Shown: piece by piece, positions 13,807 through 49,890 of the stretch | How positions within the stretch are numbered: position 1 is the first letter of the stretch | Layout: every line of letters begins with the position of its first letter | Notes under the pieces: model-generated | What the model was told of the DNA's origin: nothing | Database searches by the model: none | The model's input: only the letters and a program-made list of their open reading frames with translations | NCBI GenBank assembly: GCA_017415505.1 | Contig: JAFQGG010000011.1 | Coordinates: forward strand, 1 to 60,174 | Source: Clostridia bacterium | GTDB taxonomy: Bacteria; Bacillota; Clostridia; Christensenellales; Borkfalkiaceae | Direction: 5' to 3' | Length of the DNA: 60,174 nucleotides | Made by a program: the position numbers and the translations under genes

Positions 13807-13835
13807 TCATATTGAGCGCGCAAGGCTCGTACAAT
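13807..13835. promoter_or_regulatory. SigE-type promoter of spoVB, possibly bidirectional
   Basis: Plus strand: TCATATT (13807-13813) matches sigE -35 KMATATW perfectly, the spacer is 14 bp, and CGTACAAT (13828-13835) matches CATACAMT at 7 of 8. The spoVB ATG follows 7 nt later. On the minus strand the imperfectly symmetric sequence offers GTATATT, 14 bp, then CGCTCAAT, a weaker sigE match directed at the LysM gene. Confidence 0.7.
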
Positions 13836-13842
13836 ATACCGT

Positions 13843-15363
13843 ATGAATAGAAAAACCGCTCCCAAAAAATCAACGCCCTTTGCCACCGCTTCGCTCGTTA
13901 CGGGTTTGTCCGTCGCCGAGCGGGGCTTGGGCTTTTTGTACCGAATCGTACTCTCCCGTTTGCTCGGCGCGGAGGGCGTAGGTTTATACCAAGTCGCCCT
14001 GTCCGTCTTTTCCGTTTTTTTGACAATCGGCACGGGCGGAATCCCTATCACCGTTTCTCGGCTCATATCCAAAAGTAAAGCGGAAAACGACCTAAAAGGC
14101 GAAGCCCGCGCCGTCGGCGCGGGCGCGTTGCTTTGCGTACTTCTTACGCTTCCCGCCGTTCTCTTGTTCGTCCTCTTTCCAAAAAGCGTTGCCTTTCTCT
14201 TCTCCGACGCCCGTTGCGTGCCCGTGTTCCGAATCCTCATGCTCGGACTTATTCTCTCCGCGCTCTACGCGGTCGTTCGGGGCAGTTTTTGGGGCAACAA
14301 AAAATTCCTGCTCCCTTCCCTACTCGAACTCGCGGAAGAATCGGTCATGGTAATCGCGGGCGTTTTGCTCCTGCAAAACGTTACCACCGTCCACGACGGC
14401 GCGAACCGCGCGGCTTGGGCGGTGGTCATATCCTACCTGTTCTCTTTCACCGCCTCCACCCTTTGTTTCTTCTTCCAAGGCGGTAAGTTATCCGCCCCCA
14501 AAACTGCGTTCAAACCGCTGTTCAACGCAACCCTGCCTATCACTTCCGTCCGCGCGAGCGGTTCTCTCGTCAACTCCGCCGTCGCCGTGCTTCTCCCCGC
14601 TATGCTCATCCGTGCAGGCGCGAGCGAATCGGACGCGCTTCGTCTGTTCGGGATTCTTTCGGGCATGGCGATTCCCGTCCTGTTCATTCCCTCGACCGTC
14701 GTCGGATCGCTTGCCCTCGTGCTCGTACCCGAGCTTTCGGAGGATTTCTATCGCCACAACGAAAAGCGACTGCACAAAAATATCTTACGCGGGCTTACCG
14801 TGGCGTTTCTCGTCGCCTGTTTTCTTATTCCGTTTTTCTACGCGCTCGGCGACGAATTGGGACTTCTCGCGTTCGCCGAACCGCTCGCAGGAGAATTTAT
14901 CCGCAACGGTTGCGTACTCCTTTTGCCCATGAGTCTTACCATGATCTCCACCGCTATGCTAAACTCCATGGGCTTTGAAAAACAAACTTTCGTCTTTTAT
15001 TTCGTCGGTGCGGCGGCTATGCTGTTGTGCGTGCTTTTACTCCCGCCACTTTGCGGTGCGTACGCGTATCTTATCGGCTTGGGCGCGAGCTTTCTTGCCA
15101 CCGCCGTTTGCAATCTCGTACTTCTCGGCAAAAAATGCAAGGGGATTTTCCGTCCGTTCCTATCCAAGAAACTGCACCCCGCGCTTCGCGCGCTTTGCAC
15201 CGTGCCCGTTCTTTCCCTACTCGGCGCGATCGTCACCGTCCTCTTTTCCCGCGCGTTCGGGCAATTCCTCGCTCTGCTCCTTTCCGCGCTAACCCTGCTT
15301 TTAGCCGTCTTTTTGCTTTGGTTCGTACTCGGCGTTTTCCCCCGCAAAAAACGGCAATCGTAA
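13843..15363 (+). CDS. spoVB: Stage V sporulation protein B / MATE-like oligosaccharide flippase
   Basis: A 506-residue polytopic protein with about 14 transmembrane helices. The family motif LGFLYRIVLSRLLGAEGVGLYQ lies near residues 28-50, and the GGIPITVSRLIS segment follows. SpoVB-type proteins are lipid-linked precursor flippases of the MurJ/Wzx superfamily, and SpoVB is needed for spore cortex synthesis. The sigE promoter match agrees with the known sigE control of spoVB in Bacillus. The ATG has no Shine-Dalgarno and lies at the predicted transcription start. Confidence 0.88.
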   Translation: MNRKTAPKKSTPFATASLVTGLSVAERGLGFLYRIVLSRLLGAEGVGLYQVALSVFSVFLTIGTGGIPITVSRLISKSKAENDLKGEARAVGAGALLCVLLTLPAVLLFVLFPKSVAFLFSDARCVPVFRILMLGLILSALYAVVRGSFWGNKKFLLPSLLELAEESVMVIAGVLLLQNVTTVHDGANRAAWAVVISYLFSFTASTLCFFFQGGKLSAPKTAFKPLFNATLPITSVRASGSLVNSAVAVLLPAMLIRAGASESDALRLFGILSGMAIPVLFIPSTVVGSLALVLVPELSEDFYRHNEKRLHKNILRGLTVAFLVACFLIPFFYALGDELGLLAFAEPLAGEFIRNGCVLLLPMSLTMISTAMLNSMGFEKQTFVFYFVGAAAMLLCVLLLPPLCGAYAYLIGLGASFLATAVCNLVLLGKKCKGIFRPFLSKKLHPALRALCTVPVLSLLGAIVTVLFSRAFGQFLALLLSALTLLLAVFLLWFVLGVFPRKKRQS

Positions 15364-15401
15364 CTTTTTTCGTTTTTTCCCTACTTTTTCCCTCGTTACT
15401 C

Positions 15402-15430
15402 TTGACAATAGCGAAGATTTGGAGTACAAT
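15402..15430 (+). promoter_or_regulatory. SigA-type promoter of pgi
   Basis: TTGACA (15402-15407), 17 bp, TACAAT (15425-15430). Confidence 0.75.
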
Positions 15431-15464
15431 ATATACGAAGAGTTTTTTATAAAAGGAGTACAAA

Positions 15465-16898
15465 ATGGCTTACAAAACAAGAGAATGGCGTAAATCCATG
15501 CGCGTAACGCTGGATTACAACAATATGACGGACAAATTCCTCGGCGACAAAGGCTTCACCGCAAGAGCGCTTTCCGCTTATTCTGCGCGCGCAACGCAAG
15601 CGTGGCACTACGTAAACGACAACAGAGGCAAAGACGAGTTGTTCATGGGTTGGACGGAACTTCCCTACAACCAAAAGGAAATCGTCGCCGACATTTTGCA
15701 AACGGCGAAAACGGTGCGCTCGAAATTCCAATATTTCGTCGTACTCGGTATCGGCGGTAGCGCGCTCGGCCCTATCATGGCGTTCAACGCGCTTTGCCAC
15801 TTGCATTACAACGATTTGCCCCGTAGCAAGAGAAAAGGACCTAAATTCTACGTGGAAGACAACGTAGACCCCGTTAGAATGCAAGCGCTTCTCGACGTAA
15901 TCGACCCGAAAAAGACGTGCTTCAACGTCATTTCCAAATCGGGCGCGACGAGCGAAACGATGGCGCAATATCTCGTAATTCTTGACCTGCTCACGAAAGC
16001 GGGCGTGGACGTGAAAGAAAACGTGATCTTCACCACCGACGCGAAAAAGGGCAACCTCAAAAAGATTTCCGACGAAGTGGGCGGAATTAAGAGTTATATC
16101 CTTCCCGACGGCGTCGGCGGAAGATTCTCCCAGCTCTCTCCCGTAGGGCTTCTCCCCGCGGCGGTTTGCGGTATCGATATCAAAGGCTTACTTGCCGGCG
16201 CGGCGTATATGGACTATTTGTGCAAGAACTCGAATATGCGCAAAAACCCCGCGCTCATGAGCGCCGTTTTGCAAGTGGCGTCCATGGAAAACGGGAAAAA
16301 TATCGGCGTTATGATGCCCTACTCGGACAACTTGAAATATCTCGCCGATTGGTATTGCCAACTTTGGGCGGAATCGCTCGGCAAGAACGAAACGCTTGAC
16401 GGCGCGCCTTGCAATATCGGTCAAACGCCCGTAAAATCGCTCGGCGTAACCGACCAACACTCGCAAGTACAGCTCTACACCGAAGGTCCTTACGACAAGG
16501 TCGTTACCTTCCTCTCGCTCAAAAAGTACGGCTGTGAAATGCCCATTCCCCACGGTTGCGAAAATATCCCCGACGTAGCGTTCCTCGGCGGACACACCAT
16601 GGAAGAACTTATCCAAGCGGAAAACGCCGCGACGGCGTACGCGCTCACCAAGGCAGGCAGACTCAACTACACGCTTTGGATTCCCGAGCTCAACGCGTTC
16701 ACCTTGGGTCAGCTTTTGTTCCTCTTCGAATTGCAAACGGCGTACGCGGGCGCGATGTTCAACATCAACACCTTCAACCAACCGGGCGTAGAAGAAGGCA
16801 AAAAAGCAACTTTCGCACTCCTTGGCAAAGCGGGTTACGCGGAGAAGAAAAAGGAGCTTGACTCCCTTCCCGAAAAGTCGAATACCTGTATCGTATAA
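15465..16898 (+). CDS. pgi: Glucose-6-phosphate isomerase
   Basis: A 477-residue enzyme with the sugar isomerase (SIS) motifs VVLGIGGSALGP and NVISKSGATSETMAQY, and GGRFSQLSPVGLLP, typical of phosphoglucose isomerase. It interconverts glucose-6-phosphate and fructose-6-phosphate. AAGGAG lies before the ATG. The gene has its own promoter and terminator. Confidence 0.95.
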   Translation: MAYKTREWRKSMRVTLDYNNMTDKFLGDKGFTARALSAYSARATQAWHYVNDNRGKDELFMGWTELPYNQKEIVADILQTAKTVRSKFQYFVVLGIGGSALGPIMAFNALCHLHYNDLPRSKRKGPKFYVEDNVDPVRMQALLDVIDPKKTCFNVISKSGATSETMAQYLVILDLLTKAGVDVKENVIFTTDAKKGNLKKISDEVGGIKSYILPDGVGGRFSQLSPVGLLPAAVCGIDIKGLLAGAAYMDYLCKNSNMRKNPALMSAVLQVASMENGKNIGVMMPYSDNLKYLADWYCQLWAESLGKNETLDGAPCNIGQTPVKSLGVTDQHSQVQLYTEGPYDKVVTFLSLKKYGCEMPIPHGCENIPDVAFLGGHTMEELIQAENAATAYALTKAGRLNYTLWIPELNAFTLGQLLFLFELQTAYAGAMFNINTFNQPGVEEGKKATFALLGKAGYAEKKKELDSLPEKSNTCIV

Positions 16899-16913
16899 CC
16901 TTTCAACGCATAC

Positions 16914-17435: not shown

Positions 17436-17440
17436 CGCTA

Positions 17441-17468: not shown

Positions 17469-17500
17469 CTCGCAAAATATCCCCGTTTCTCCAATAAAAA

Positions 17501-31580: not shown

Positions 31581-31609
31581 GAATATCCGCACGCGGGCGC
31601 GCTTATACT
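31581..31609 (+). promoter_or_regulatory. SigE-type promoter of murG-yunB
   Basis: GAATATC (31581-31587, 6 of 7 to KMATATW), 14 bp, CTTATACT (31602-31609, 6 of 8 to CATACAMT). The murG ATG lies 6 nt downstream. The 240 bp between here and the surface-protein promoter hold no gene, only AT-rich sequence and a short hairpin near 31463. Confidence 0.55.
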
Positions 31610-31615: not shown

Positions 31616-32671
31616 ATGAAAAAGATTTTATTTACGGGCGGGGGAAGCGCGGGGCACGTCGTACCTAATATCGCGCTTTTCGAACAGCTCTTATCCGAAG
31701 GCGAAACGGACGTTTGTTATATGGGTACGAACGGCATTGAAAAACGTATTCTTTCCGAATGGAAAGTGCCCTTTTACGAAATCGAGTGTCCAAAACTCGT
31801 GCGCGGGGGCGGTATTTCGGTATGGAAACGAAACGCCAAAATACCGTTTTCCTTTTTTCGCGCGGTGAAAGACGCGAAACGGGGCTTGCGCGTTTTACGC
31901 CCCGACGCCGTATTTTCTAAGGGCGGTTACGTCGCCCTGCCCGTCGTAATCGCCGCGTGGCAAATGAAGATTCCCTGCTACGCCCACGAAAGCGATTTTT
32001 CCGCAGGGCTTGCCAACCGTATTTCCGCGCGGTTTTGCAAGAAAATTTTCACCTCGTTCCCCGAAACGGCGAAAAAGCTCAAACGGGGCGCTTTTAGCGG
32101 TGCGCCCGTCAAACGCTCGGTATTTGCTTGCACGCGCGCGGAAGCGCGAAAAAAATACGGGATCGGTTTTCAAGAAAAAGTACTGCTCGTTTTCGGGGGC
32201 GGAAGCGGTAGTGAGGTCATCAATCAAGCAATTCGCGCGCAACTTAAAACGCTCACGAAAACTTTCGTCGTCTTACACGCGTGCGGGAAAGGCAACCTCG
32301 CGGATATACGGGAGAAAGGGTATATACAAACGGAATTCATCAAAGACATGGGTACGGCGTACGCCTGCGCGGACGCCGTCGTTTCTCGCGCGGGCGCAGG
32401 AACGGTTTTCGAGCTTCTCGCGCTCAAAAAGCCCGCCCTCCTTATCCCTCTCGAAGGGCAAACGCGAGGCGATCAAATCGAGAACGCCGAGTATTTTGAA
32501 AAGCGCGGGCTTTGCCGAGTCCTCAAACAAAGCGAGCTTTCTCGCCTTAGCGAGGAAGCAAAAAACACGCTCGAAGATACCGAGCTTAAAAAACGGCTCT
32601 CCGCGCACGAGTACCCGCTCGGCAACGAGCGGATTTTGAGTGAATTGAAAAGGGCGATTCAAAATGGGTAA
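31616..32671 (+). CDS. murG: MurG-like glycosyltransferase, probably sporulation-specific
   Basis: A 351-residue GT28 enzyme. The N-terminal lipid-acceptor domain has FTGGGSAGHVVPNIAL and the C-terminal UDP-GlcNAc domain has LVFGGGSGSEVIN and SRAGAGTVFELLALKKPALLIPL. MurG adds GlcNAc to lipid I to make lipid II. This copy is not in a dcw cluster. It overlaps yunB by 8 nt and has a sigE-like promoter and no Shine-Dalgarno, so I infer a mother-cell enzyme for cortex precursor synthesis rather than the vegetative MurG. Confidence 0.88.
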   Translation: MKKILFTGGGSAGHVVPNIALFEQLLSEGETDVCYMGTNGIEKRILSEWKVPFYEIECPKLVRGGGISVWKRNAKIPFSFFRAVKDAKRGLRVLRPDAVFSKGGYVALPVVIAAWQMKIPCYAHESDFSAGLANRISARFCKKIFTSFPETAKKLKRGAFSGAPVKRSVFACTRAEARKKYGIGFQEKVLLVFGGGSGSEVINQAIRAQLKTLTKTFVVLHACGKGNLADIREKGYIQTEFIKDMGTAYACADAVVSRAGAGTVFELLALKKPALLIPLEGQTRGDQIENAEYFEKRGLCRVLKQSELSRLSEEAKNTLEDTELKKRLSAHEYPLGNERILSELKRAIQNG

Positions 32672-33362
32672 GTTTCGGGAATACGACCTACCCGCTTACC
32701 CGCCGAAAAGAAAAAAACGCCGTTTGAAACGGCGGTTATTTTTCATACTCGTTTCCGCGGTGGGAATTTTCATTCTTCTGTTTATTTATTTCCAACGCAA
32801 CGTGACGCGCGTGCTCATTTCCATTAGCGAAGCGACGATGCGCGCGAGTACCACCGTTGCCGTCAACGACGCGGTATATTATACCCTCTCCGACGATATG
32901 CGTTACGAGGACCTCGTTACCGTCACCCGCAACGAGGCGGGTGAAATCGTGGGCGTTTCCGCAAACTCGCTCAAAATCAACAAGATCGCCCGCGACACCG
33001 CTTCCATCTCCCAATCCAACCTAAAAAATTTGAGTCTAAACGGAATCCCCGTGCCCCTCGGCGCGCTCACGGGCATAGAGGCGTTTGCGGGGTTAGGTCC
33101 GAGTATTCAATTCCGTATCATTCCCGTAAGTAGCGTTTCGTGCGATTTTTCCTCTACCTTTGAAAGCGTGGGTATCAACCAAACGAAGCACTCTATCTAT
33201 CTCAACGTAATTGCGGATATTAGTATCGTCATGCCTTCGCGAACGGAGAATTTCGCCGTCACGACGGAAATTCTCGTCGGGGAATCGGTTATCGTCGGGC
33301 AAATCCCCGACGCGTATCTACAATCGGACGTCTTTGGCAATAAGCCCAATTTAACGGCGTGA
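32664..33362 (+). CDS. yunB: Sporulation protein YunB
   Basis: A 232-residue protein. A very basic N-terminus (KRKKRRLKRRLFF) precedes a single transmembrane helix at about 28-48; the rest is extracytoplasmic. The segments AVNDAVYYTL and IPLG-type PVPLGALTGIEAFAGLGPSIQFRIIPV match YunB. In Bacillus yunB is sigE-controlled; its function is not understood. The ATG overlaps the murG stop, so the two are translationally coupled. Confidence 0.88.
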   Translation: MGKFREYDLPAYPPKRKKRRLKRRLFFILVSAVGIFILLFIYFQRNVTRVLISISEATMRASTTVAVNDAVYYTLSDDMRYEDLVTVTRNEAGEIVGVSANSLKINKIARDTASISQSNLKNLSLNGIPVPLGALTGIEAFAGLGPSIQFRIIPVSSVSCDFSSTFESVGINQTKHSIYLNVIADISIVMPSRTENFAVTTEILVGESVIVGQIPDAYLQSDVFGNKPNLTA

Positions 33363-33384: not shown

Positions 33385-33768
33385 TTAATTCTTTTTCGAG
33401 CGGGAACGGAACAGCATAGCCATGAGAAACGAGAATATGACCGCCGCCGACACTCCCGCGCTCGCCGCGGAAAGTGCGCCCGTAAACGCGCCGAACAAGC
33501 CTTTTTGCGCGCCCTTCATTGCGCCGTTCGCCAATAAATACCCAAAGCCCGAGATAGGAACGGTCGCGCCCGCGCCCGCAAAATCCACGAGGTATTGATA
33601 CAATCCCAAGCCCTGCAAAATCACCCCGCAAAGCATAAAAGTGACGAGTATTTTTCCCGCCGTGAGGTCGGTATAGTTGATTACCACTTGCGCGATCGCG
33701 CAAATCGTACCGCCCACGGCGAACGCCTTAATAAACCCCCAAAAAATTTCCAAATACTGTTCAAACAT
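33385..33768 (-). CDS. spoVAE: Stage V sporulation protein AE
   Basis: A 127-residue membrane protein with four helices matching SpoVAE(b): FWGFIKAFAVGGTICAIAQVVINYT, GAGATVPISGFGYLLANGAMKGA. It is a component of the SpoVA channel that moves Ca-dipicolinate across the spore inner membrane. GAGGGG precedes the ATG. It follows spoVAD by 10 bp. Confidence 0.93.
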   Translation of the reverse strand: MFEQYLEIFWGFIKAFAVGGTICAIAQVVINYTDLTAGKILVTFMLCGVILQGLGLYQYLVDFAGAGATVPISGFGYLLANGAMKGAQKGLFGAFTGALSAASAGVSAAVIFSFLMAMLFRSRSKKN

Positions 33769-33778
33769 TCTATTCCCC

Positions 33779-34768
33779 TCACAAATTCTCTATCGCGACC
33801 GCGTGGCAAATTCCGGGGATACTCTCCCCTTGCCCGCTCGATACGGTAGAAAGCAACGCGCCCGTCGCGCAAAAAAGAACGCGGTTTAACTCCCGTTTTT
33901 TTATTTTATCCATAATATACGAATGGAACACCACCGCGCTACAACCCGCACCGCTACCGCCTTGGAATTCGTCCTCGATTACGTTATAGATAATCTCCCC
34001 GCAATCGACGTGATTTTTTTGTATATCCACGCCCTTTTCCCAAAGCAGGTCTTTGAGGATTCTACTGCCCAACGCGCCGAGGTCGCCCGTCACGATCAAA
34101 TCGTAATCGTCGGCGGTTCTGCCCGTATCTTTGAAGTGCGCCAAAATCGAATGAGCTGCGCTTGGACTCATTGCCGCGCCCATGTTGTTTACGTCGGTAA
34201 TACCGAAATCCACGACCTTACCAAAGGTCGCCGAAGTGATTGCGATATCGCTTCCCTTATCCGCAATCACGCACCCGCCCGCACCCGTCACCGTCCATTG
34301 TGACTGGGGCGGGCGGGTATTGCCAAGCTCCAAGGGGTATCTATACTGCCGTTCGGCGGAAGAAAAGTGACTACCCGTCGCCGCGACCACGCGCCGAAAA
34401 TACCCCGCGTTGACGAGCGCGCCCGCCAACGCCATACTCTCGGACATGGTAGAACACGCGCTATACACGCCAAGGAACGGGAAATCAAAATCGCGCGCGG
34501 CGAACGAGGCGGAAATAATTTGATTGAGCAAATCGCCTGAAATCAACATATCGATATCCGACTCTTTGAGTTTCGCGTTTTCGATTGCCTTCGATATGGC
34601 GTACGAAAGCATTTTGCACTCCGCCTTTTCGTAGGTGCTTTCTCCAAAAGTATCGTCGTCAAGCGTTCTATCCACGAAGTTCCCCACTACGCCCGCACAC
34701 TCTTTCGGGCCTGCCACCGTGCCCGTCGCCACGATTCTCGGTTTATTTTCAAAAAATATCGTTTGCAT
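33779..34768 (-). CDS. spoVAD: Stage V sporulation protein AD
   Basis: A 329-residue protein with a thiolase/ketoacyl-synthase-like fold as known for SpoVAD, which binds dipicolinic acid. Motifs include GVYSACSTMSESMALAGALV, GAGGCVIAD and GGSGAGCSAVVFHSYI. The start at MQTIFFENKP is normal for the family. There is no Shine-Dalgarno; instead a consensus sigG promoter ends 8 nt upstream. The in-frame stretch further upstream would put the promoter inside the gene and was rejected. Confidence 0.94.
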   Translation of the reverse strand: MQTIFFENKPRIVATGTVAGPKECAGVVGNFVDRTLDDDTFGESTYEKAECKMLSYAISKAIENAKLKESDIDMLISGDLLNQIISASFAARDFDFPFLGVYSACSTMSESMALAGALVNAGYFRRVVAATGSHFSSAERQYRYPLELGNTRPPQSQWTVTGAGGCVIADKGSDIAITSATFGKVVDFGITDVNNMGAAMSPSAAHSILAHFKDTGRTADDYDLIVTGDLGALGSRILKDLLWEKGVDIQKNHVDCGEIIYNVIEDEFQGGSGAGCSAVVFHSYIMDKIKKRELNRVLFCATGALLSTVSSGQGESIPGICHAVAIENL

Positions 34769-34776: not shown

Positions 34777-34806
34777 TAGTATGAAAAGCACTCGCAATTT
34801 TTATAC
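34777..34806 (-). promoter_or_regulatory. SigG-type promoter of spoVAD-spoVAE
   Basis: Minus-strand GTATA (34802-34806, matches GHATR), 18 bp, CATACTA (34777-34783, full match to CATNMTA). The -10 ends 8 nt before the ATG. Confidence 0.75.
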
Positions 34807-34879: not shown

Positions 34880-37060
34880 TTATTTTTTCAATTTCCCGAC
34901 GCGCTTTTTCACGACGATTTCCAAAGCGTTTTCCTTTTCGCCCGTGCGAAGGTATTCTTCCACGAAAACTTTCGCGGCGTCCATAACGTTATAATCGGAA
35001 TCCAAGAACACGCACCAACCTTTTACGTCCGCAAAATACGCATAGCCGCTAAGGTCCAAGCCCTCTTTATAAAATTCTTTGGTCATGGCGTTTTTGCCCA
35101 CCATAATTCCGCGCTCCCAATACGCGGGATAGATAGCGTTATCCTTTTCAATGGGCACGGTAAAGCCCGTTTTTTCAAAGACGCACCGTTGGATATATTC
35201 CGCCGCGCGCAATTCCTCTTGCGTGGGGCTTTGCCCCGTAATGAGCTTGTATTTCGATTGGTTATCGCTTACAAAATCAATAAAAATCGGCACGACTTCG
35301 CCTTGGCGTTTCACGCCGATCGCGTCGGCGAGCGCATAAAACTTCTCTTCGTAGGCAATATTTTCACCGCCGAAATACGCCTCCGCGTTCCGCAAAATCA
35401 TGCGAACGGGCGTAATCAATACCGTTTGCAAGCGTTTTACGAATACGGCTTTTTCTTCCGCGGAAAGGGCGGAAGTTTGCACCTTTTGAATCGCCCCGTC
35501 CAGCAACGCTTCCATTTCTTGCAAAAATTCGAGCGGATATTCCTTGGGATTAAAGAATCCCGCTTTCGTTTCGCCGAGGCTAAGATGGAAACCGCGCGCT
35601 ATCTTTTCCGCAAAAAAACTTTCCATTCTTTGAATGAACGCTAATACTTCCTCCGCGCCCAACCCAAAATAAATAGATACGTATTCCTTTACGATTTCTT
35701 CCACGTCCAAAGCCGTATTCCAAAACAGCTTGGAGCATACGTAGGATTTTAATTCGTCCTGCCAAACCGTACCGATATTATACGCGCCTTGTTTCATGAT
35801 ATAGCTCATGCCGATTCTTTCGCAAAGCTGCAAGTTGCGTTTCAAATAGGACAAATTCGCAAAATACAAAAAATAATCAAAGAAACAGCAGTTATAATCC
35901 CACAGCATTATATTTTTCGTCAACGCCGACCAGCCCTCTATCTGCGTGCGAATACATTCGTTTTGCCGAGGATCGTCGAACGCGTAGGTATAATTCGCGG
36001 CGTCTAACGGCGCGTAGCGGATATGCAAATCCTTATCGGGGATCACCTTTGGAGAAATGGGTTTGCCGTCTTTTACGGGCGGATTGACCGTTGCGGAATA
36101 CGCAAAGGTAACCAATTTCTTATCAAACGTCTTGCCTTGCTCGGCAAATCTTTTACGGGCTTGGGCAATCACGTTGTTCATAAACACCATCATAATGCCC
36201 GAATCGCCGTATTCCGCCCGCGCCTTTTCGCATTTTGGACAATGACAGCGCGCGTTGGAATTATCCACCCTGCCGAACATAAAATATTTCGCTTCGGGGT
36301 CGTCCGCTATATACTTCATAAGGGAATCTACCGTAACGGATATAACGCTACAATCCACGCTCTCGTCGTATTCCCCGTCTTCCGTCAAACCGTTGGTATA
36401 GCAAAGCTCCACCGCGTCGAACAAACGAAACCCCTTATATTGATACACGCTGAAAAATTCAGGGTGCGTGTCCTTATATTTCTCGTAAGGCACGTAAAGG
36501 TTCGAGTTATGGCTACTTGGAATCCCTTTATACCATTTACTTCTCAAACCGTACGCTTCCGCCTCCGGGCAATAATCGGCGGTATATTTATAACGCAAAT
36601 TGACGAGCGCGTCTTCGTACGCGCTACTGCAAAGATAGGTGCGTTGCCCCGAAATGGGCACGCGTTTTACGGTTTTTTCTTCCACGATAAGCTTCTCGCT
36701 TACGGGCACGTATTCGCAATCCCGAGAGATAAAGCGAACGCCCAAATAAAGCTCCAAAAATTCGTAAACGCCAAAGATAACGCTCTTTTCGCTTTGCCCG
36801 AAAATGTAAACGTTCCCGTTTTTGGGCACGATATAAAAACCGTCTTCGTTCAAATCGCTTACGCCGTACTCCTCTATCAACGACGCGGATTTTTCGTTTA
36901 CGCCCAACGAAATAAAATGCGCTTGATTCGTATAGGCAAGAATGGAAAACCCGCAGGCTTTCCGTATGAATTTTTCCAGCTCCGCTTTGGCAAACTCCAA
37001 GCCTTTCGAGCCGTCCGTAATAATACCGTAATCCGCACAGGAAATTCTATCTATTTGCAT
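34880..37060 (-). CDS. DUF4838 domain-containing protein (glycoside hydrolase-like)
   Basis: A 726-residue cytosolic-looking protein without a signal peptide. The N-terminal ~130 residues resemble the alpha-glucuronidase/hexosaminidase N-terminal domain (GVYEFLELYLGVRFISRDCEYVP). DUF4838, a TIM-barrel-like module, spans about 150-420 and includes a CHCPKC metal-like motif (RCHCPKCEKARAEYG). A C-terminal helical plus alpha/beta region follows (KQGAYNIGTVWQDELKSYV). Members are linked to polysaccharide breakdown; substrate unknown. The ATG at 37060 is close to GTGAGG. It is the second gene after the shorter paralogue and is probably controlled by the AraC protein next door. Confidence 0.8.
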   Translation of the reverse strand: MQIDRISCADYGIITDGSKGLEFAKAELEKFIRKACGFSILAYTNQAHFISLGVNEKSASLIEEYGVSDLNEDGFYIVPKNGNVYIFGQSEKSVIFGVYEFLELYLGVRFISRDCEYVPVSEKLIVEEKTVKRVPISGQRTYLCSSAYEDALVNLRYKYTADYCPEAEAYGLRSKWYKGIPSSHNSNLYVPYEKYKDTHPEFFSVYQYKGFRLFDAVELCYTNGLTEDGEYDESVDCSVISVTVDSLMKYIADDPEAKYFMFGRVDNSNARCHCPKCEKARAEYGDSGIMMVFMNNVIAQARKRFAEQGKTFDKKLVTFAYSATVNPPVKDGKPISPKVIPDKDLHIRYAPLDAANYTYAFDDPRQNECIRTQIEGWSALTKNIMLWDYNCCFFDYFLYFANLSYLKRNLQLCERIGMSYIMKQGAYNIGTVWQDELKSYVCSKLFWNTALDVEEIVKEYVSIYFGLGAEEVLAFIQRMESFFAEKIARGFHLSLGETKAGFFNPKEYPLEFLQEMEALLDGAIQKVQTSALSAEEKAVFVKRLQTVLITPVRMILRNAEAYFGGENIAYEEKFYALADAIGVKRQGEVVPIFIDFVSDNQSKYKLITGQSPTQEELRAAEYIQRCVFEKTGFTVPIEKDNAIYPAYWERGIMVGKNAMTKEFYKEGLDLSGYAYFADVKGWCVFLDSDYNVMDAAKVFVEEYLRTGEKENALEIVVKKRVGKLKK

Positions 37061-37076
37061 TTTCCTCACCCCTGTA

Positions 37077-38243
37077 TTACTCGTCTATTCTTTTTACCTC
37101 GCAAAAAATATGCGTAAACACTTTATCCCCTTCCCGCTTTACGATATTTTCGGCAAAATATTTCGTCGCGCCTAAAATATCCGTTCCGCTCATAATGAAA
37201 AAGCATCTGCCTATCGATTGCAACCAGTATTCCTTATCCGATAAATCAATACCGTCTTTGAAAAACTCACGCGAAACCCCGTTCACGCCGATCAAAAAGC
37301 CCTTGGAGCGCGACGACGGCCAAACGTTGTTCCAATCGTCGTCCACGATCGGTACGCTGAGCCCGTAGTTGGTTTGCAAGTAGTTTTGCAAATACTCGGC
37401 GCTTGCTTTTTCTTCCGCCGTCGGCGTTTTGGTCGTTACGATCTTGTACTCGCTTTGCCCGCCGTTGCCGATCTCGATATAAAGAGGCAGAGTTTCCGCC
37501 AGCTTTTCGATATTCGCTTTTTTCATGATTCGGTAGAATTCTTTTTCTAAGTCCTCGTACGCAAAGCCTTTATAATCGTGTTTATTGGCGAGCATCATTC
37601 TAAGCGGTGTGAGCGTCACCATTTCCAAACGGAAAATGTACGCTTCCTTTTCCCGCTCGCTAAGCGAAGACTTTTCTATTTCCAAAAAGCCGTCTTGCAA
37701 CGCGCGGTAAACCGAGAGCAAAAACTCCACGGGACAGTTTTCGTGCCCCACGAACTTCTCGTCCGTACCCAAGCTAATATGCAAACCGTTTTCTATGCGT
37801 TCCTTAAAAAACGCTTCCATCGTTTGCAAGAAGGCAAGCACCGTTTTGCTTGCAGGTCCGTAATACAGCGTTACGTATTCCTTTTGCAAGTCCTCGACGG
37901 ATAGATCTAAATCCCAATACAGCTTGGAGGCAATATACGCTTTCATTTCCGCTTGCCATTCCCGTCTTACGTTGTACGCGCCCTGATTAAACACGTACGA
38001 AAAACGGTTCTCCGCTTGACAGCTTTCCGTCAAGTCGAACTCGTCGTATCTTTTTTTGTCGGGATAATCGGAGCAGGCGGAAAACGCAACGATTTTTCCG
38101 TTCAGCTTCGCGCAAAAAACCGAATCGCAAGAAATTCTTAAAATAACGCGCTCGCGTTCCTGTACGCGAAACGAATCTATAAACTCCGCATACGAGTCTT
38201 CCCGTTGCGACTGCAACCAAATAGGCAACGCTTTTGCAAACAT
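37077..38243 (-). CDS. DUF4838 paralogue lacking the central domain
   Basis: A 388-residue protein. Residues about 80-388 align along their length with the C-terminal 310 residues of the neighbour (NQGAYNVRREWQAEMKAYIASKLYWD against KQGAYNIGTVWQDELKSYV). Residues 1-75 are a different, beta-sandwich-like start resembling rhamnosidase N-terminal domains (FCAKLNGKIVAFSACSDYPDKKRYDEFDLT). The DUF4838 core is missing, so it is either a non-catalytic subunit or the in-frame product of a deletion. A hairpin (CTTGAC/GTCAAG, 38009-38029) lies at the junction. No good Shine-Dalgarno. Confidence 0.65.
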   Translation of the reverse strand: MFAKALPIWLQSQREDSYAEFIDSFRVQERERVILRISCDSVFCAKLNGKIVAFSACSDYPDKKRYDEFDLTESCQAENRFSYVFNQGAYNVRREWQAEMKAYIASKLYWDLDLSVEDLQKEYVTLYYGPASKTVLAFLQTMEAFFKERIENGLHISLGTDEKFVGHENCPVEFLLSVYRALQDGFLEIEKSSLSEREKEAYIFRLEMVTLTPLRMMLANKHDYKGFAYEDLEKEFYRIMKKANIEKLAETLPLYIEIGNGGQSEYKIVTTKTPTAEEKASAEYLQNYLQTNYGLSVPIVDDDWNNVWPSSRSKGFLIGVNGVSREFFKDGIDLSDKEYWLQSIGRCFFIMSGTDILGATKYFAENIVKREGDKVFTHIFCEVKRIDE

Positions 38244-39978: not shown

Positions 39979-40080
39979 TCACACCTGCCCCCTTTCTTCC
40001 GATTTTTTCGGCGCGGGAAAACAAGTTTCCCGCTCGTCGCGCGAACGAAGTTCCGTTTCGTATACTTTTATTTTTTTCAT
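39979..40080 (-). CDS. Short ORF upstream of spoVAC (33 aa)
   Basis: The frame begins MKKIKVYETELRSRDERET and is hydrophilic. It has no Shine-Dalgarno. A sigG-like promoter places its ATG 5 nt after the -10, as in other sporulation genes here, and its stop is 1 nt from the spoVAC ATG. It may be a leaderless first cistron or a leader peptide that delivers ribosomes to spoVAC. No similarity recognised. Confidence 0.4.
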   Translation of the reverse strand: MKKIKVYETELRSRDERETCFPAPKKSEERGQV

Positions 40081-40784: not shown

Positions 40785-41401
40785 GTTTTTTGCTTTTACC
40801 AAAAAAACTTAACCATGGTTAAGTTTTTATTTTGTCTTAAAATGCCGACTCTACGCACAGTAGAGTTGTGTTTTTCTGGCGGTTTTTGAATTTCCAAAAC
40901 TTAACCATGGTTAAGTTTTTCGTCTTTCCCTGACGGGATTAACGCTTCGCGTGAAGCGCAACCTACGGTTGCTTGTCTTTGGCTTACTTCGCCTATCGGC
41001 GCGCTTGACAGCGGGTCTTGAGCTTCGCGCCCAAACCGCGCAAGGAACTTCGTCCCTTGACCCGTGTTACTAAAACTTAACCATGGTTAAGTTTTGGAAT
41101 TGTACCGCCATTTTGCGGAGCAAAATTTCATTGCGTAGCAATTTCACCCGCCATAGGCGGATTTCATTCGGCGTAGCCGAATTTCATTGTGTTAATGACC
41201 GAGGGTTGCCACAGCGCAACGCTGTATTGCGACGCGGATTCTCCGCGTTCACCGACCAGCTTGAATAAACCGAAGTAAAACGGAGCAAGACGCAAGCAAG
41301 ACAAGGCGAACGAGGCTTTTTCGACGGGAGTTTACTAACCGTAAACGAGCAAGAAAAAACGCAGTTCAACGCAGTATTGCGTAGCGGATTCTCCGTTTTA
41401 C
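40785..41401. repeat. Hairpin-mosaic repeat array 4
   Basis: About 620 bp inserted between ybaB and recR. The 24-bp palindrome lies at 40804-40827, 40896-40919 and 41072-41095. Between them are modules shared with array 1: a chain of TTCG-looped hairpins (40940-41065) and the TTTCA-separated hairpin string (41110-41188). The last 200 bp carry the CGGATTCTCCG unit twice. The right end lies 1 bp from the ybaB stop codon. Confidence 0.85.
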
Positions 41402-45350: not shown

Positions 45351-46058
45351 TCAAAGGACAAAATCGCCAAGAAACGCCATTACGCCCGCCACTACGCTTT
45401 CCGCTAACTTCCGTTGCCACGCCACGCTTTGCAACAACGCCTCGTCCGCGGGGCTGGAAAGAAACCCGCATTCGAGAATCACCGACGGCGCGGAGGTACA
45501 TTCGAGCATGAAATACTCGCCCGACGAGGCGTTCCTGCCCTTGACCCCCTCCGTTTTATACAGCGCGTTCAGCGACGATTGAAGCGCGAGCGCAAGGCGC
45601 TTGCTCTCCTCCCGTTTTTTGCTGTAAAACACCTGCGCCCCGCGCGAGGTTGAAGAGGGATAAAAGTTTTGGTGCACGGACAAAACGAGCGCGGGATCGG
45701 CGTTTTCAACGATCTCCTTGCGCTTTTGCATATCCCGTTTTTTGAACCCCTTTGCGGTCGTGCCGTACAGTCCCGCGTCCGTCTTGCGCGTGAGCGTGAC
45801 CGCAAAACCCATATCCTCGAACGCCTCTTTCAAACGAAAGGTAACGGCGAGGTTGAGATCGCTCTCCTTTATCCCCGTCGTCTTACCGACCACACCGCCG
45901 TCTACACCGCCGTGCCCCGCGTCCAATACGATCCGCATTTCCGTTTGCGAAGCGGAAAACACCGTTTGCGGAGCAAGCAACGCCCGCACGCATAACCCGA
46001 TTGCCGTTACGAAAACCACCGCCACCGCCGTTACGGTGGCAACCCAATTCTTATTCAT
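45351..46058 (-). CDS. cwlD: N-acetylmuramoyl-L-alanine amidase CwlD (germination/cortex)
   Basis: A 235-residue protein. An N-terminal signal anchor (WVATVTAVAVVFVTAIGL) precedes an Amidase_3 domain with VLDAGHGGVDGG, SVHQNFYPS and ECGFLSSPADEALL. CwlD acts in making muramic lactam in spore cortex, and in Bacillus it is made under sigE and sigG. The upstream sigE match supports this identity over a vegetative amidase. There is no usable Shine-Dalgarno; the ATG is 6 nt from the -10. Confidence 0.87.
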   Translation of the reverse strand: MNKNWVATVTAVAVVFVTAIGLCVRALLAPQTVFSASQTEMRIVLDAGHGGVDGGVVGKTTGIKESDLNLAVTFRLKEAFEDMGFAVTLTRKTDAGLYGTTAKGFKKRDMQKRKEIVENADPALVLSVHQNFYPSSTSRGAQVFYSKKREESKRLALALQSSLNALYKTEGVKGRNASSGEYFMLECTSAPSVILECGFLSSPADEALLQSVAWQRKLAESVVAGVMAFLGDFVL

Positions 46059-46064: not shown

Positions 46065-46093
46065 ATTCTATGCGCCCCCGCGCGGGAATATGC
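46065..46093 (-). promoter_or_regulatory. SigE-type promoter of cwlD
   Basis: Minus-strand GCATATT (46087-46093, full match to KMATATW), 14 bp, CATAGAAT (46065-46072, 7 of 8 to CATACAMT). The ATG lies 6 nt downstream. Confidence 0.7.
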
Positions 46094-46134
46094 CCCGTAT
46101 TTTTCTCGTTCAACGCATACCTGCCCCAATAAAA

Positions 46135-46161
46135 CGCCGTTCCGTGACAGACGGAACGGCG
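46135..46161 (-). terminator. Terminator of the DeoC-like gene
   Basis: An 11-bp stem CGCCGTTCCGT/ACGGAACGGCG, 5-nt loop. On the minus strand it is followed by TTTTATT. Confidence 0.8.
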
Positions 46162-46167
46162 GTTTAT

Positions 46168-47052
46168 TTACAGAAAAGTCAAGCGACCGTCCACGATACG
46201 GCAACGGTAGTTGGTTTCCTCGTTTCGCGTTTTTGCGATCGGCGCGGGCGGGGTCGGAGGGGGTTGTATTTTCGGTTTTTCGTTTGCGGGCGGGGTATAC
46301 GCAGGCGGTTCGTTCGTTTCGCGCAGCCAAGCGGAATAGATTTCCCACGCCCGTTGCGTGGCGATACGCCCCACGCCCGCGGAAATCAACCGCTTATACT
46401 CGTCGAGCGTTTCCACCCCCGTCACTTCCAATTCACAACCGCCCGTAAGGTCGATCCGCAGTTTTTCGCAACCCGCGAAGTGCGGTACGCTAAAAAATCT
46501 TGCACCCGTTTCGCACGCGATTCGGGCGATACGGGAAAGCGCGGTGGGCGAAAAAATACTTTCCGCGCGCACCTTCAACGGCGTTTTGCCCACGGCGCGT
46601 TTCACCCGTTTAAGCTCTCTTCGAATTTCCCCGTACCGACAGCCCTCTACGAGCGAGGGCGCGAGCGTGAGCGTAATTTCCTCCGCGCCTCGCTTGCGCG
46701 CGAGGCGCGCTTCCAAAGCTTTTACCTTCGCGAGCGTTTCCCCGTCCCCGCCGATTTTGCAGTCCGTTTTCACCCCGCTTCCTTTCAAGCACGCCACCGT
46801 GCGCGCAAGCTTTGAAAGGGGCACTTTCACGGCGGCTTGCCGAGTGCGAATCGCCCGTTGGCACACCCTTTGAATATCCTCGCCCGCGGGCAAATCCGAT
46901 TCCGCTTTCGCGATCGCCGTCACCACTTCCGCCGTGCGTTTCTGCCGTTTGTAGGCGCGGAATTCTTCCATATCCGACGGGGAAAGCACGGGAGTTTTTA
47001 TCGCGTCGTCTTTCGTAAGAGAAGTTTGATCGTTATGCGTTTGCTGTTCCAT
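46168..47052 (-). CDS. DeoC-like TIM-barrel pseudoenzyme with Pro-rich tail, probably forespore-expressed
   Basis: A 294-residue protein. After a charged 75-residue N-terminus, residues about 75-240 follow deoxyribose-phosphate aldolase in order: TDCKIGGDGETLAKVKALEA, GAEEITLTLAPSLVEG, GARFFSVPHFAG, ELEVTGVETLDEYKRLISAGVGRIAT. The Schiff-base Lys position (VKTSTG in DERA) reads FFSVPHF and the second Lys (KASGG) reads ELEVTG, so the known chemistry should be lost. The C-terminus is Pro-rich (PPAYTPP...IQPPPTPPAP). No Shine-Dalgarno; a sigG promoter ends 5 nt before this ATG, which I used to choose the start. Confidence 0.65.
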   Translation of the reverse strand: MEQQTHNDQTSLTKDDAIKTPVLSPSDMEEFRAYKRQKRTAEVVTAIAKAESDLPAGEDIQRVCQRAIRTRQAAVKVPLSKLARTVACLKGSGVKTDCKIGGDGETLAKVKALEARLARKRGAEEITLTLAPSLVEGCRYGEIRRELKRVKRAVGKTPLKVRAESIFSPTALSRIARIACETGARFFSVPHFAGCEKLRIDLTGGCELEVTGVETLDEYKRLISAGVGRIATQRAWEIYSAWLRETNEPPAYTPPANEKPKIQPPPTPPAPIAKTRNEETNYRCRIVDGRLTFL

Positions 47053-47057
47053 GGTTT

Positions 47058-47087
47058 GAGTATGCGACAAAGCAAGCGCGTTTATTC
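47058..47087 (-). promoter_or_regulatory. SigG-type promoter of the DeoC-like gene
   Basis: Minus-strand GAATA (47083-47087, matches GHATR), 18 bp, CATACTC (47058-47064, 6 of 7 to CATNMTA). The ATG lies 5 nt downstream. Confidence 0.6.
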
Positions 47088-47133
47088 CAATTTTAGCCAA
47101 TTTATGACAACGAAAAAACTGTATACTTTCCTC

Positions 47134-47391
47134 ATGAACGACGCAATTTTCGGAATCCTTGGACTACTCGTCCTCTTTATCTTATCCTTCTTCGCGGTAC
47201 ATATTATCAAACTCGCGAAAATCGGCTACCGCGCGCAAAAGACCCCGACCCAGCCTAAGCCCAAACGGGAAGAAGTCAAAAAAGAAGCTCCCCCAAAGCA
47301 AAATTTAGGAGAGCCCGTTTACTATATCGTCGAACGGAAACGGCGCACGAAATCCAGCTATTCCGCGCCCAAAGAAATCCGTTTCAAATAA
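47134..47391 (+). CDS. Small single-pass membrane protein (85 aa)
   Basis: A transmembrane helix (IFGILGLLVLFILSFFAVHII) is followed by a Lys/Pro-rich cytoplasmic tail (KTPTQPKPKREEVKKEAPPK) and a Tyr/Arg-rich end. The family is unknown. There is no Shine-Dalgarno. TATACT lies 6 nt before this ATG, the same geometry as the leaderless genes, though the sigma class is unclear. An upstream ATG at 47104 would place the -10 inside the gene. It diverges from the DeoC-like gene. Confidence 0.55.
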   Translation: MNDAIFGILGLLVLFILSFFAVHIIKLAKIGYRAQKTPTQPKPKREEVKKEAPPKQNLGEPVYYIVERKRRTKSSYSAPKEIRFK

Positions 47392-47394
47392 ATT

Positions 47395-47838
47395 TTATTC
47401 TTCTTCCGTTTTGAGCGTTTTGCTCAAAACGACTTTGGCTTGCTTTTCCGATTCCCCGCCTTCCAAATCTTCCGTTTGGTCGTTGTATTTTTGCAAATTA
47501 CCGCCGTCCGCCCAAAGCCGTTCTAAATGATAGAACAAACGGGTTTCGTCGTTGAAAATATGCACGATTACGTCGCCGTAATCCACCACGCCCCAACGCC
47601 CGTCGCGAACGCCTTCCGTGCGGGAAGGCACTAACCCAAGTTGCGCTTCCACGAGCTCTTCCACCCGCTCGCCCATCGCGCGGATTTGCGGGGCGTTGCT
47701 ACCGCTTGCGATTACGAAATAATCGCAAAGATCCGTCTTTTCCCGTACGTATAAACATACGATATCCTTACCGCGCTTTTCCGAAAGCGCCTTACACACC
47801 GTTAAAGCCAACACTCTGCTCGTCGTTTGATTTTCCAT
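47395..47838 (-). CDS. rsfS: Ribosome silencing factor RsfS
   Basis: A 147-residue protein of the Iojap/RsfS family: ALSEKRGKDIVCLYVREKTDLCDYFVIASGSNAPQIRAMGERVEE, RDGRWGVVDYGDVIVHIFNDETRLFYHLERLW. It binds L14 and blocks subunit joining in poor conditions. A Lys/Glu-rich tail extends past the usual end. It lies 8 bp after the nadD-yqeK fusion, the classic nadD-yqeK-rsfS order. Confidence 0.95.
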   Translation of the reverse strand: MENQTTSRVLALTVCKALSEKRGKDIVCLYVREKTDLCDYFVIASGSNAPQIRAMGERVEELVEAQLGLVPSRTEGVRDGRWGVVDYGDVIVHIFNDETRLFYHLERLWADGGNLQKYNDQTEDLEGGESEKQAKVVLSKTLKTEEE

Positions 47839-47845
47839 AATATCC

Positions 47846-49018
47846 TCACTCGTTCCTTAAATTTTTATAATATTCGTACGCTTCTTTCGTTAAGGGATAC
47901 ACCCATTCCCCCTTTCCTTCCAAAAACGCAACCGTCTGTCTTAACGCCTCTTCCAAGCACTCGTCTAGCCCCGCTTCCTTGGGAAGCGCGGGATTTTTTT
48001 TCTCGAACAACTCCCGAAGCTTTTCCACTCCCTCGTAGCTTCGATTCGGTTCTATCATGTCCGCAAGAAAAATAAGTTTTCCAAGCGCGCTCATACCCGC
48101 TTTTCCGCTCGTGTGGAAACGGATCGCGTCGAGTACTTCGCCGTCCGTCACGCCAAACGCGTGCTCCGCAAGGTACGCCCCCGCGAATTGGTGCGTCACT
48201 TCGCGGGGAATCTCTCCCCACTTTGCGGGCGGGACGAACCCTTTTAGAAGGGGCGAACCGCTTTCCAAATTTTTCGCGCAATCGTGAAAGAGGGAAGCTA
48301 AAATCGCCTTTCTCTCGGACACGCCGAGCGAAACCGCCCGTTTCGCCGCCACGAACGCCACGCGCAAACTGTGCGCCACGCGAGCGGGCTTTTCTAACGC
48401 CAACGCCTTTTCCGCGTTTTCGATTGCATACAGCTTATTCTCCCGTATATACGCCTCCGTTTCTTCCGTCACCAACGGCGTTAAACGCATACCTGCCCCC
48501 GCCAAAACGCGAACCTGCGTCGAAGAAACGGGCGCGCCGTTATAACCGATTAAAACGAATTCTTTGCCGAACCGACGGGTAAACCCCGAAAGCTCTTTTT
48601 GCGCCCAACCCTCTTTTTCGTCGCGGGCGCAAACGGCAAGCGTTGCGTTCGATAAAATATCCTCGGGATTTTTCCAAGTGGGAAAATCCCGCAACATATC
48701 CGTACCGACCAACCAAAAAAGCTCCGCTTCCTTATATATTTCGCGGAAATGACGGCAGGTAAGATAGGTATAGCTCGTCCCGCCCTTCGTAATTTCGTAA
48801 TCGCTCACCTCGGCGTTCGGCACGCACGCAAACGCGATTTTACAAAGCTCCAAACGGTGACGATCGGGCGCAAGCTCTTTCCCTTTTTTATGCGGAGGAG
48901 AAGCCACGGGCATCACGATCAACTTATCGAGCGCAAGCGTTTTCACCGCGCTTTCCGCCAAACGGATATGCTCACAATGCACGGGGTCGAACGAACCGCC
49001 GAAAATTCCTATTCTCAT
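47846..49018 (-). CDS. Fused nicotinate-nucleotide adenylyltransferase (NadD) and HD hydrolase (YqeK)
   Basis: A 390-residue two-domain protein. Residues 1-200 are NadD: GIFGGSFDPVHCEHIRLAE, PPHKKGK, and SSTQVR near residue 165. Residues 205-390 are YqeK, an HD-domain Ap4A hydrolase (HSLRVAFVAAKRA, LFHDCAKNL, HQFAGAYLAEHAFG). In most Bacillota these are separate neighbouring genes, so the fusion follows conserved order. AGGAGG precedes the ATG. NadD acts in NAD synthesis. Confidence 0.93.
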   Translation of the reverse strand: MRIGIFGGSFDPVHCEHIRLAESAVKTLALDKLIVMPVASPPHKKGKELAPDRHRLELCKIAFACVPNAEVSDYEITKGGTSYTYLTCRHFREIYKEAELFWLVGTDMLRDFPTWKNPEDILSNATLAVCARDEKEGWAQKELSGFTRRFGKEFVLIGYNGAPVSSTQVRVLAGAGMRLTPLVTEETEAYIRENKLYAIENAEKALALEKPARVAHSLRVAFVAAKRAVSLGVSERKAILASLFHDCAKNLESGSPLLKGFVPPAKWGEIPREVTHQFAGAYLAEHAFGVTDGEVLDAIRFHTSGKAGMSALGKLIFLADMIEPNRSYEGVEKLRELFEKKNPALPKEAGLDECLEEALRQTVAFLEGKGEWVYPLTKEAYEYYKNLRNE

Positions 49019-49058
49019 TCGCCCCTCCTTTCGTCAAAATTCTCGCTTCCGTAGTATA

Positions 49059-49087
49059 AGTATAGCATATTTTTTTCTTTTTTTCAA
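49059..49087 (-). promoter_or_regulatory. Promoter of nadD-yqeK-rsfS
   Basis: Minus-strand TTGAAA (49082-49087), 17 bp, TATACT (49059-49064). Confidence 0.6.
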
Positions 49088-49117
49088 GTTTATAACGCCA
49101 CAAATTTGGCAAAAATC
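49088..49117 (+). promoter_or_regulatory. SigF-type promoter
   Basis: GTTTA (49088-49092, full match to GYWTA), 15 bp, GGCAAAAATC (49108-49117, 9 of 10 to GGNRANANTW). The ATG at 49123 lies 5 nt downstream. Confidence 0.6.
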
Positions 49118-49122
49118 TAAAT

Positions 49123-49890
49123 ATGAAAAAATCAGCGTTCTATTCAGATATACTTTTTAGCTTTTCCCTCGTGGGAATTTTCACGCTTTGTTTCTTTCGG
49201 TACTTGCGTATCGCGCTCTTCCCCGCGCTTCTTCTCGCGTTTGCTTGCGGAGTACTCGCCGCGACGGCAAACGGCGCGTGGCTACAAAGCAAACGCCAAA
49301 CGCTTCTCCTTCGAAAATCGGACGAAGAAGAAAAGCAAAAACTGCTTTTGCACCTCGCCCTGCTTTCCGACGAGCAAAAAACCGTCTTTTTTCAAAAGGT
49401 TTTGTCCGCGCGGGGCGAAGTCAAGCGGTTTTCCCGCCTGCGCCTTACGACGAAAGAGGAATTTTTCTTCCTCTGCTTCCGTTTTAAGCCCCTCTCCGCC
49501 GACGAGGTTTCCGCCGTATACCGTCTAAAAACGAACAAACGGCGGGTAATCTTATGCGGGGAAGCGGACGATTCGGCGCGCCGTCTTTGCGATAGAGTGA
49601 ATATTCAACTTTGCGAGGGCGAGCGCGTGTACGAAGAAGTAAAAACCGCGCAAGCCCTGCCCGACGCCTATCTCGGCGATTCGCCGAAAACGAAACGCCG
49701 TTTGCGATTGTGCTTTGCCAAAAGCAACAGCCGTCGTTTTCTCACGGCGGGCGCGCTCGTACTTTTAACCTCTTTGATCACGCCCTTTCCACGCTACTAT
49801 CTCATTTTCGGTTCTGCGCTTCTCGCGCTTGCCGTTATCGTGCGCATTTTTGGAAAATCTCCACAAACGCCACAGGCAGGTACGAGATAA
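49123..49890 (+). CDS. Unknown membrane protein, probably forespore-expressed
   Basis: A 255-residue protein. Two transmembrane helices near residues 10-50 and two near 210-245 flank a basic cytoplasmic domain of about 150 residues (LRKSDEEEKQKLLLHLALLSDEQKTVFFQKVL...). No known domain was recognised. The sigF-type promoter and missing Shine-Dalgarno indicate an early forespore, leaderless gene. Its 3' end overlaps the convergent nnr gene by 56 bp. Confidence 0.65.
   Translation: MKKSAFYSDILFSFSLVGIFTLCFFRYLRIALFPALLLAFACGVLAATANGAWLQSKRQTLLLRKSDEEEKQKLLLHLALLSDEQKTVFFQKVLSARGEVKRFSRLRLTTKEEFFFLCFRFKPLSADEVSAVYRLKTNKRRVILCGEADDSARRLCDRVNIQLCEGERVYEEVKTAQALPDAYLGDSPKTKRRLRLCFAKSNSRRFLTAGALVLLTSLITPFPRYYLIFGSALLALAVIVRIFGKSPQTPQAGTR

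Follow-up and report, generated by a model that had tools for sequence, protein, structure and literature searches.

Predicted leaderless mRNAs at a conserved subset of sporulation-type transcription units in a genus of uncultured gut Clostridia

As described in the accessible part of a computational survey (Zheng et al., 2011; PMC3160421), leaderless ("TA-led") genes carry a TANNNT -10 element ~10-12 bp before the start, and such genes were found in 56 of 209 Firmicutes genomes, at 4.2% (range 2.4-16.6). Transcription start site (TSS) maps, again as given in excerpted text, include 15 mapped leaderless genes in Clostridioides difficile (PMC7438776), ~2-3% leaderless transcripts in three solventogenic clostridia (PMC9045289), 4% of intergenic-sense TSS in C. 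phytofermentans (PMC5171806) and 212 leaderless transcripts among C. acetobutylicum genes with detected proteins (PMC4533764). For sporulation, an excerpt of PMC4282423 discusses leaderless initiation in the promoter section on sspA of Streptomyces coelicolor, a SigF-dependent, sporulation-specific gene. Here we consider a 60,174-nt contig (JAFQGG010000011.1, or C48, "the window") from a metagenome-assembled genome (MAG) of a Clostridia bacterium (GCA_017415505.1; 1.82 Mb, 54 contigs, 94% complete), in which sporulation-type promoters end a few nucleotides before the start codons of spoVB, murG2 (followed by yunB), spoVAD, cwlD, a DeoC-like gene and a gene for an unknown protein with hydrophobic segments ("the 49123 gene").

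These starts resemble TA-led genes (PMC3160421, accessible part) in having a -10 signal close to the start in a minority of genes, whereas the Firmicutes cases in that text centre on Lactobacillales and Mycoplasma and ours lie in uncultured Clostridia, behind both sporulation-type and sigma-A-type promoters ("Clostridi" is absent from the main text of that paper). The clostridial TSS maps likewise contain some leaderless mRNAs, with sporulation regulons not singled out in the excerpts available, and, unlike the genes treated here, the C. phytofermentans candidates generally kept a ribosome binding site and another upstream TSS (PMC5171806, in part). The sspA case, from what the excerpt gives, differs in phylum and in kind of sporulation, and concerns a single gene. 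Leaderless sporulation regulons in endospore formers were not reported among the matches listed in a literature search of titles and abstract beginnings, with subscription journals mostly outside its reach. Leaderless initiation is a known mode; its strongly conserved sporulation setting is new.

Our preferred reading, to which we assign a probability of about 0.8, is that in this genus leaderless mRNAs form a minor general mode of expression which includes a conserved subset of sigE-, sigF- and sigG-type units, namely spoVB, cwlD, spoIIIAA (outside the window), the DeoC-like gene and the 49123 gene, with murG2-yunB and spoVAD added in some species. Leaderless mRNAs are likely here because the -10 element is close, a Shine-Dalgarno (SD) site is lacking, and the spacing is kept in genus relatives. 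RNA polymerase with a sporulation sigma factor would start at the A of the ATG or no more than ~2 nt from it, and the ribosome would engage the 5'-terminal AUG independently of SD pairing; genes farther down the same units would rely on ordinary SD sites.

All six window starts are ATG codons, preceded by properly spaced -35 and -10 boxes (two-box stretches read against B. subtilis-type consensus; Table 1). The distance from the end of the -10 element to the ATG is 7 nt for spoVB (GTACAAT), 8 nt for spoVAD (CATACTA) and 6 nt for murG2 (TATACT), cwlD (CATAGAAT), the DeoC-like gene (CATACT) and the 49123 gene (GGCAAAAAT). SD duplex energies were -2.0 kcal/mol for spoVB, -1.5 for murG2, +3.6 for spoVAD, +1.0 for the DeoC-like gene and -4.7 for cwlD, the last being the weakest case for SD absence; the 49123 gene had been overlooked by the gene caller, and its 20-member group has a median of 0.7, with no value at or below -5. 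The initial annotation had claimed a close sporulation-type -10 and no SD at these six starts, and this holds, with a gap of 6-8 nt and no usable SD, so that the six are most likely leaderless mRNAs, as predicted from sequence. It had also held that housekeeping genes in the window keep strong SD sites; energies are at or below -5 in 41 of 52 called genes, but an ordinary gene, for a metallophosphoesterase with a sigA-type promoter, has the leaderless geometry. The other 11 called genes comprise five of the six starts, three doubtful or wrong calls (13769-, 17615+ and 32760+) and three genes (7675-, 11660- and 38535+). The protein encoded at 49123 had no Pfam or NCBIfam match, and DeoC-like matches above 100 bits were found in 22 of 25 genus genomes searched.

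Table 1. Promoters, genes and other features of the window (coordinates on the 60,174-nt contig)
Feature	Position	Strand	Details
sigE-type promoter of spoVB	13807..13836	+	-35 TCATATT, -10 GTACAATA, core to ATG (13843) 14 nt
spoVB, predicted leaderless	13843..15363	+	TIGR02900 E=7.6e-53, under equivalog cut-off
sigE-type promoter of murG2-yunB	31581..31609	+	-35 GAATATCC, -10 TATACT, ATG (31616) 6 nt on
murG2, predicted leaderless head	31616-32671	+	MurG family match
yunB, 3' of murG2	32664-33362	+	YunB match above curated cut-off; unit 31616..33362
sigG-type promoter of spoVAD	34777..34806	-	-35 GTATA, -10 CATACTA, core to ATG (34768) 15 nt
spoVAD, predicted leaderless	33779-34768	-	SpoVAD match above curated cut-off; unit 33385..34768
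SpoVAC/SpoVAEB-family gene in spoVAD unit	33385-33768	-	has SD
sigE-type promoter of cwlD	46065..46092	-	-35 CATATT, -10 CATAGAAT, core to ATG (46058) 14 nt
cwlD, predicted leaderless	45351..46058	-	TIGR02883 E=1.5e-48, under equivalog cut-off
sigG/sigF-type promoter of DeoC-like gene	47058..47088	-	-35 GGAATA, -10 GCATACT, ATG at 47052
DeoC-like gene adjoining cwlD, predicted leaderless	46168..47052	-	TIGR00126 48.8 bits, below cut-off
sigF-type promoter of the 49123 gene	49088..49116	+	GTTTA, 15 nt, GGCAAAAAT; ATG (49123) 6 nt on
Unknown protein with hydrophobic segments, predicted leaderless	49123..49890	+	alignment of 11 members
Metallophosphoesterase, sigA-type leaderless comparison	10965-11660	-	TATAAT 6 nt 5' of ATG, no SD
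Conserved 33-aa small ORF before spoVAC	39979..40080	-	stop 1 nt before spoVAC start (39977)
Gut-1 RNA (RF01706)	41136-41197	-	53.2 bits

The geometry is conserved in the genus, for which 37 genomes (G000-G036) were at hand, 25 of them searched for cwlD, the DeoC-like gene, spoVB, YunB and the 49123 gene. From the -10 core to the ATG we found 13-16 nt in 23 of 25 cwlD loci (14 and 18 nt, by eye, in the other two) and 12-14 nt in all 23 spoVB loci read; the DeoC-like spacing takes one value in 19 of 22 loci, is 3-4 nt longer in two and was read by eye in one, and that of the 49123 gene takes a single value in all 20 loci read among 25 genomes. None of the 90 genus rows for these four genes has an SD energy at or below -5, while their protein identity to the window homologues ranges from 36 to 69% across the compared genomes. 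spoIIIAA, whose family search preceded any sight of its promoter, behaves in the same way: the core lies 14-15 nt from the ATG in 13 of 13 loci read (among 17 genus genomes with a match) and the TTCTA -35 is conserved. In the genome of the window, spoIIIAA scores 155 bits, short of the family cut-off, but SpoIIIAC and SpoIIIAE matches follow downstream. Outside the genus, 8 of 11 families shown have an SD-like, purine-rich stretch before the likely start of spoIIIAA (by eye), and spoVB is mixed, with an SD-like stretch in two of seven families (G043 and G045) and a close -10 in others, e.g., G049 (by eye). By contrast, at spoIVA the nearest -10-like core is 33-114 nt off and SD energies run from -10.5 to -12.7 in 27 of 28 rows (30 of 34 loci read, 28 counted, with G001 and G002 left out; G028 is ambiguous, with an in-frame upstream ATG 15 nt 3' of a CATACGATA).

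It is this conservation of spacing within the genus that constitutes the evidence against chance. Wrong start codons or coincidental motif matches might be suspected, given that the gene caller misplaced the starts of spoIIE, spoIIR and spoIIIAA and that short AT-rich motifs are common; yet the family matches of MurG and SpoVAD start right at the ATG or next to it, and conservation across 13-25 genomes excludes chance, so that an artefact is contradicted by the comparative data and has a next to negligible probability. The assertion that six cases of the same geometry are hard to obtain by chance is accordingly borne out, through genus conservation and not through the automatic count given below.

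murG2 and spoVAD are not leaderless throughout the genus. Of 22 murG2 loci, 18 include upstream sequence and four do not; among the 18, four lack an SD (-1.5 to +1.9) and place the -10 exactly 6 nt before the ATG, and 14 have an SD (-5.2 to -12.1), 12 of these with the -10 at 19-46 nt and two without a -10 matching the pattern. No intermediate form was seen among these 18 loci. The promoter-like elements, the absence of SD sites, the conserved spacing and this either/or of spacing and SD at murG2 are read directly from the DNA. For spoVAD (23 loci read by eye, of 37), ~15 have an SD behind a spoVAC-type upstream end, four have their own -10 close to a start (G000, G004, G021 and G027) and four their own promoter with a leader (G008, G019, G032 and G033). 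In the window, other genes separate spoVAD from spoVAC; the interval 34880-38243 holds, among others, a pair of DUF4838-type genes, of which one gives a GH67 N-terminal match. spoVAC was at one stage taken as a leadered counterexample, and was dropped once a small ORF was found in front of it. This ORF, of 32-38 aa with a motif like R[DE]ERE[TS]CF here and in eight relatives, had no Pfam match and is probably the leaderless head of the spoVAC unit.

To place these units against the rest of the genome, we sampled 805 kb (44% of the genome; 649 genes), in which 401 heads of transcription units were counted, 78 without and 323 with SD. Starts in this count were set by coding score plus SD, which biases it against leaderless calls, and it supersedes an earlier count of close -10 elements with starts set by codon usage only. 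A sigA-like -10 at 3-8 nt from the start occurs in 23 of the 78 SD-less heads vs. 4 of the 323 SD heads (p = 2e-14), the same motif being found in 1-7 SD-less heads (mean 3.5) in the eight other distance windows used as background. An exact TATAAT lies 5-7 nt 5' of the start in 15 SD-less heads, and all 23 heads with a close sigA-like -10 start with ATG, vs. 43 of the 55 other SD-less heads. spoVB, murG2 and cwlD are among the 23, leaving 20 others, with 3-4 expected by chance. The families found in 15 of these 20, which were scanned, are UvrD/PcrA, an HhH-GPD DNA repair protein, RuvX, an RlmL-type methyltransferase, MATE, PHP, an Fe-S protein, VTT, AraC- and HTH-type regulators, a lipase and the metallophosphoesterase, with one unclear. 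Homologues of four of the 20 genes were met in genus stretches, all four with a close -10 and one of them also with an SD score of -8.1. Ten genus relatives (40 kb each) gave 10 close sigA-type -10 elements vs. a background of ~3, a signal too small per genome in samples of this size, and 40 kb of Escherichia coli K-12 gave none in four SD-less heads.

Another explanation would be that transcription comes from farther upstream, from other promoters or by read-through, and gives these mRNAs longer leaders; translation would then take some other SD-independent route, and the nearby -10-like sequences would be incidental. The 55 of 78 SD-less heads without a sigA-like -10 at 3-8 nt do point to other non-SD starts, or to wrong calls, in this genome. 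Against this, spoVB, murG2 and the 49123 gene are divergent from their upstream neighbours, a terminator-like repeat precedes spoIIIAA (by eye), the spacing is conserved genus-wide, and murG2 always has an SD where there is more room; we regard longer leaders as very unlikely.

A broader view, that of the initial annotation, is that the spore programme as such is leaderless and that leaderless mRNAs selectively serve the sporulation sigma regulons. Of the 12 family-defined sporulation heads in the sample, six appear leaderless (spoVB, murG2-yunB, spoVAD, cwlD, spoIIIAA and, as a probable case, the small ORF in front of spoVAC), vs. 20 of 389 other heads (Fisher p = 3e-5), which favours this view. 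We consider the enrichment suggestive only, because the window is where the pattern was first noticed: outside it, the figures are one of six vs. 19 of 360 (p = 0.29). The outcome was the same with earlier sets (6/11 vs. 23/390 and, outside, 1/5 vs. 22/360), before the SipL-domain gene was added and three sporulation genes were removed from the 23. The other six sporulation heads (spoIVA, spoIIR, spoIIID, spoVT, the SipL-domain gene and spoIIE) are SD-led, as is an M23-peptidase-like gene behind a sigE-type promoter, and spoIIR has an SD in all 18 genus loci read by eye (of 33).

Two-box promoter searches were run on the same 805 kb. A strict sigG-type search returned seven matches. Two of them precede an ORF, and in each the ATG follows 5 nt past the box: the DeoC-like gene and veg, a VEG-family gene (PF06257; L499:13737-13976 (+)) whose two-box promoter is sigG-like. 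This again speaks for programme-wide leaderlessness. The sigE-type TTCTA search returned eight matches, of which four precede an ORF (at 6, 35, 39 and 55 nt); a second sigE-type pattern gave five, two of them preceding an ORF (11 and 52 nt), and a sigF-type pattern four, again with two preceding an ORF (2 and 6 nt). With very few cases to go by, forespore-type promoters thus look nearer to the ATG than those of mother-cell type. The proposed comparison of promoter distance with SD strength, run on these 805 kb, agreed in that close -10 elements occur mostly at SD-less heads, but sigA-type genes share the geometry. Taken with the SD-led heads and the figures outside the window, this makes a programme-wide rule unlikely: the six starts are likely leaderless, and the extension to much of the spore programme holds only in part, half of the 12 heads being SD-led.

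Motif counts by themselves are of little help in this matter. A sporulation-type -10 at 3-8 nt was found in six of the 78 SD-less heads vs. 0-3 in the eight other distance windows. All six lie inside the window, four being genes of the initial annotation and two doubtful GTG starts. This automatic count adds little against chance because of that location, because of the two GTG starts and because the caller misplaced the spoIIIAA start. A whole-genome pattern of CATACTA followed after 5-9 nt by ATG gave four matches (spoVAD, a VTT-domain gene and two sites with only a 31- or 54-codon frame) vs. 13 for the reversed control, and was set aside as powerless alone.

Returning to leaderless mRNAs as a minor general mode with a conserved sporulation subset, several points weigh against it. 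No sporulation-type leaderless head turned up beyond the window in the automatic scan of the 805 kb, in part because the spoIIIAA start was misplaced, and among the TTCTA matches only spoIIIAA has its ATG at 6 nt, the others lying at 35-55 nt. The transcription starts (and so the 5' ends), the acting sigma factors and the mode of ribosome entry are predictions; the DeoC-like and 49123 genes owe their sporulation label to promoter sequence alone; and the small ORF before spoVAC has a weak -10 (CAAGCTA) in this genome. Relatives were scored by eye or by regular expression, and three rows that the expressions did not capture (cwlD in G008 and G001, the DeoC-like gene in G017) were admitted on visual reading. 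The sigE, sigF and sigG labels are putative assignments by B. subtilis-type consensus sequences. The sigA-type signal, moreover, extends beyond the genus (9 vs. ~3.7 in 40 kb from each of ten other families of the order, likewise too small per genome), and because of this similar weak excess the leaderless mode may be wider than the genus.

Several features of neighbouring sporulation loci deserve mention. The sigE-type -10 of spoIVA (L254) and the sigF-type -10 of spoIIR (L035) lie within the 5' arm of a terminator-like hairpin (by eye), which is followed by a T-run and was seen in many genus loci (by eye). Transcripts starting in this arm would escape termination because they would lack the hairpin's 5' arm, and the hairpin would stop transcripts reading through from upstream. 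At the DNA level, spoIIR seems to have unusually conserved first codons (GCATAATTTTTTTATTGTCAATCATAATAAG-like; by eye, in L035 near 12000-12100 and in relatives). A GGGGCAGGTAYGCG-like string recurs before sporulation genes in several genomes, in the window near 46113-46137 (-), 5' of cwlD, and in several relatives 5' of spoVAD, spoVAC or cwlD. None of the 37 genus genomes matched the germination protease GPR (PF03418) or alpha/beta-type SASP (PF00269); among 24 genomes from other families of the order, GPR was found in 18 and SASP in 7. SpoVAD, SpoIVA and SpoIIR are retained in most genus genomes, and spores, if made, may protect their DNA differently. The 80 nearest SpoVAD loci from named genomes come from gut MAGs (deer, sheep, chicken and other sources), labelled mostly Clostridia or Clostridiales, with one Christensenella and one Candidatus Gallimonas.

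As to why some units and not others would be leaderless, we hypothesize that leaderless units encode low-copy membrane proteins and enzymes, with coat, regulator and signal genes SD-led; that SpoIVA, the SipL-type protein, SpoIIR, SpoIIID and SpoVT stand for abundant or regulatory products is a guess, the division being drawn from 12 units. In sporulating B. subtilis, ribosomes accumulate at SD sites, according to the accessible part of PMC11339384. It is tempting to speculate, though we hold it to be rather improbable, that the leaderless units of sporulation constitute a developmental class of translation, in which mRNAs with a 5'-terminal AUG, coding for low-copy membrane proteins and cortex enzymes, would stay translated late in sporulation, independently of SD sites, as SD-dependent initiation slows, and selection for late translation would fix the -10-to-ATG distance over the genus.

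The spoIIIAA start is a warning that gene callers can misplace leaderless starts in MAGs. murG2 and spoVAD, as natural switches between leaderless and SD-led forms, would be useful to test what benefit leaderless initiation brings. Overall, in this Clostridia lineage with sporulation genes, defined core units appear to be leaderless throughout the genus.

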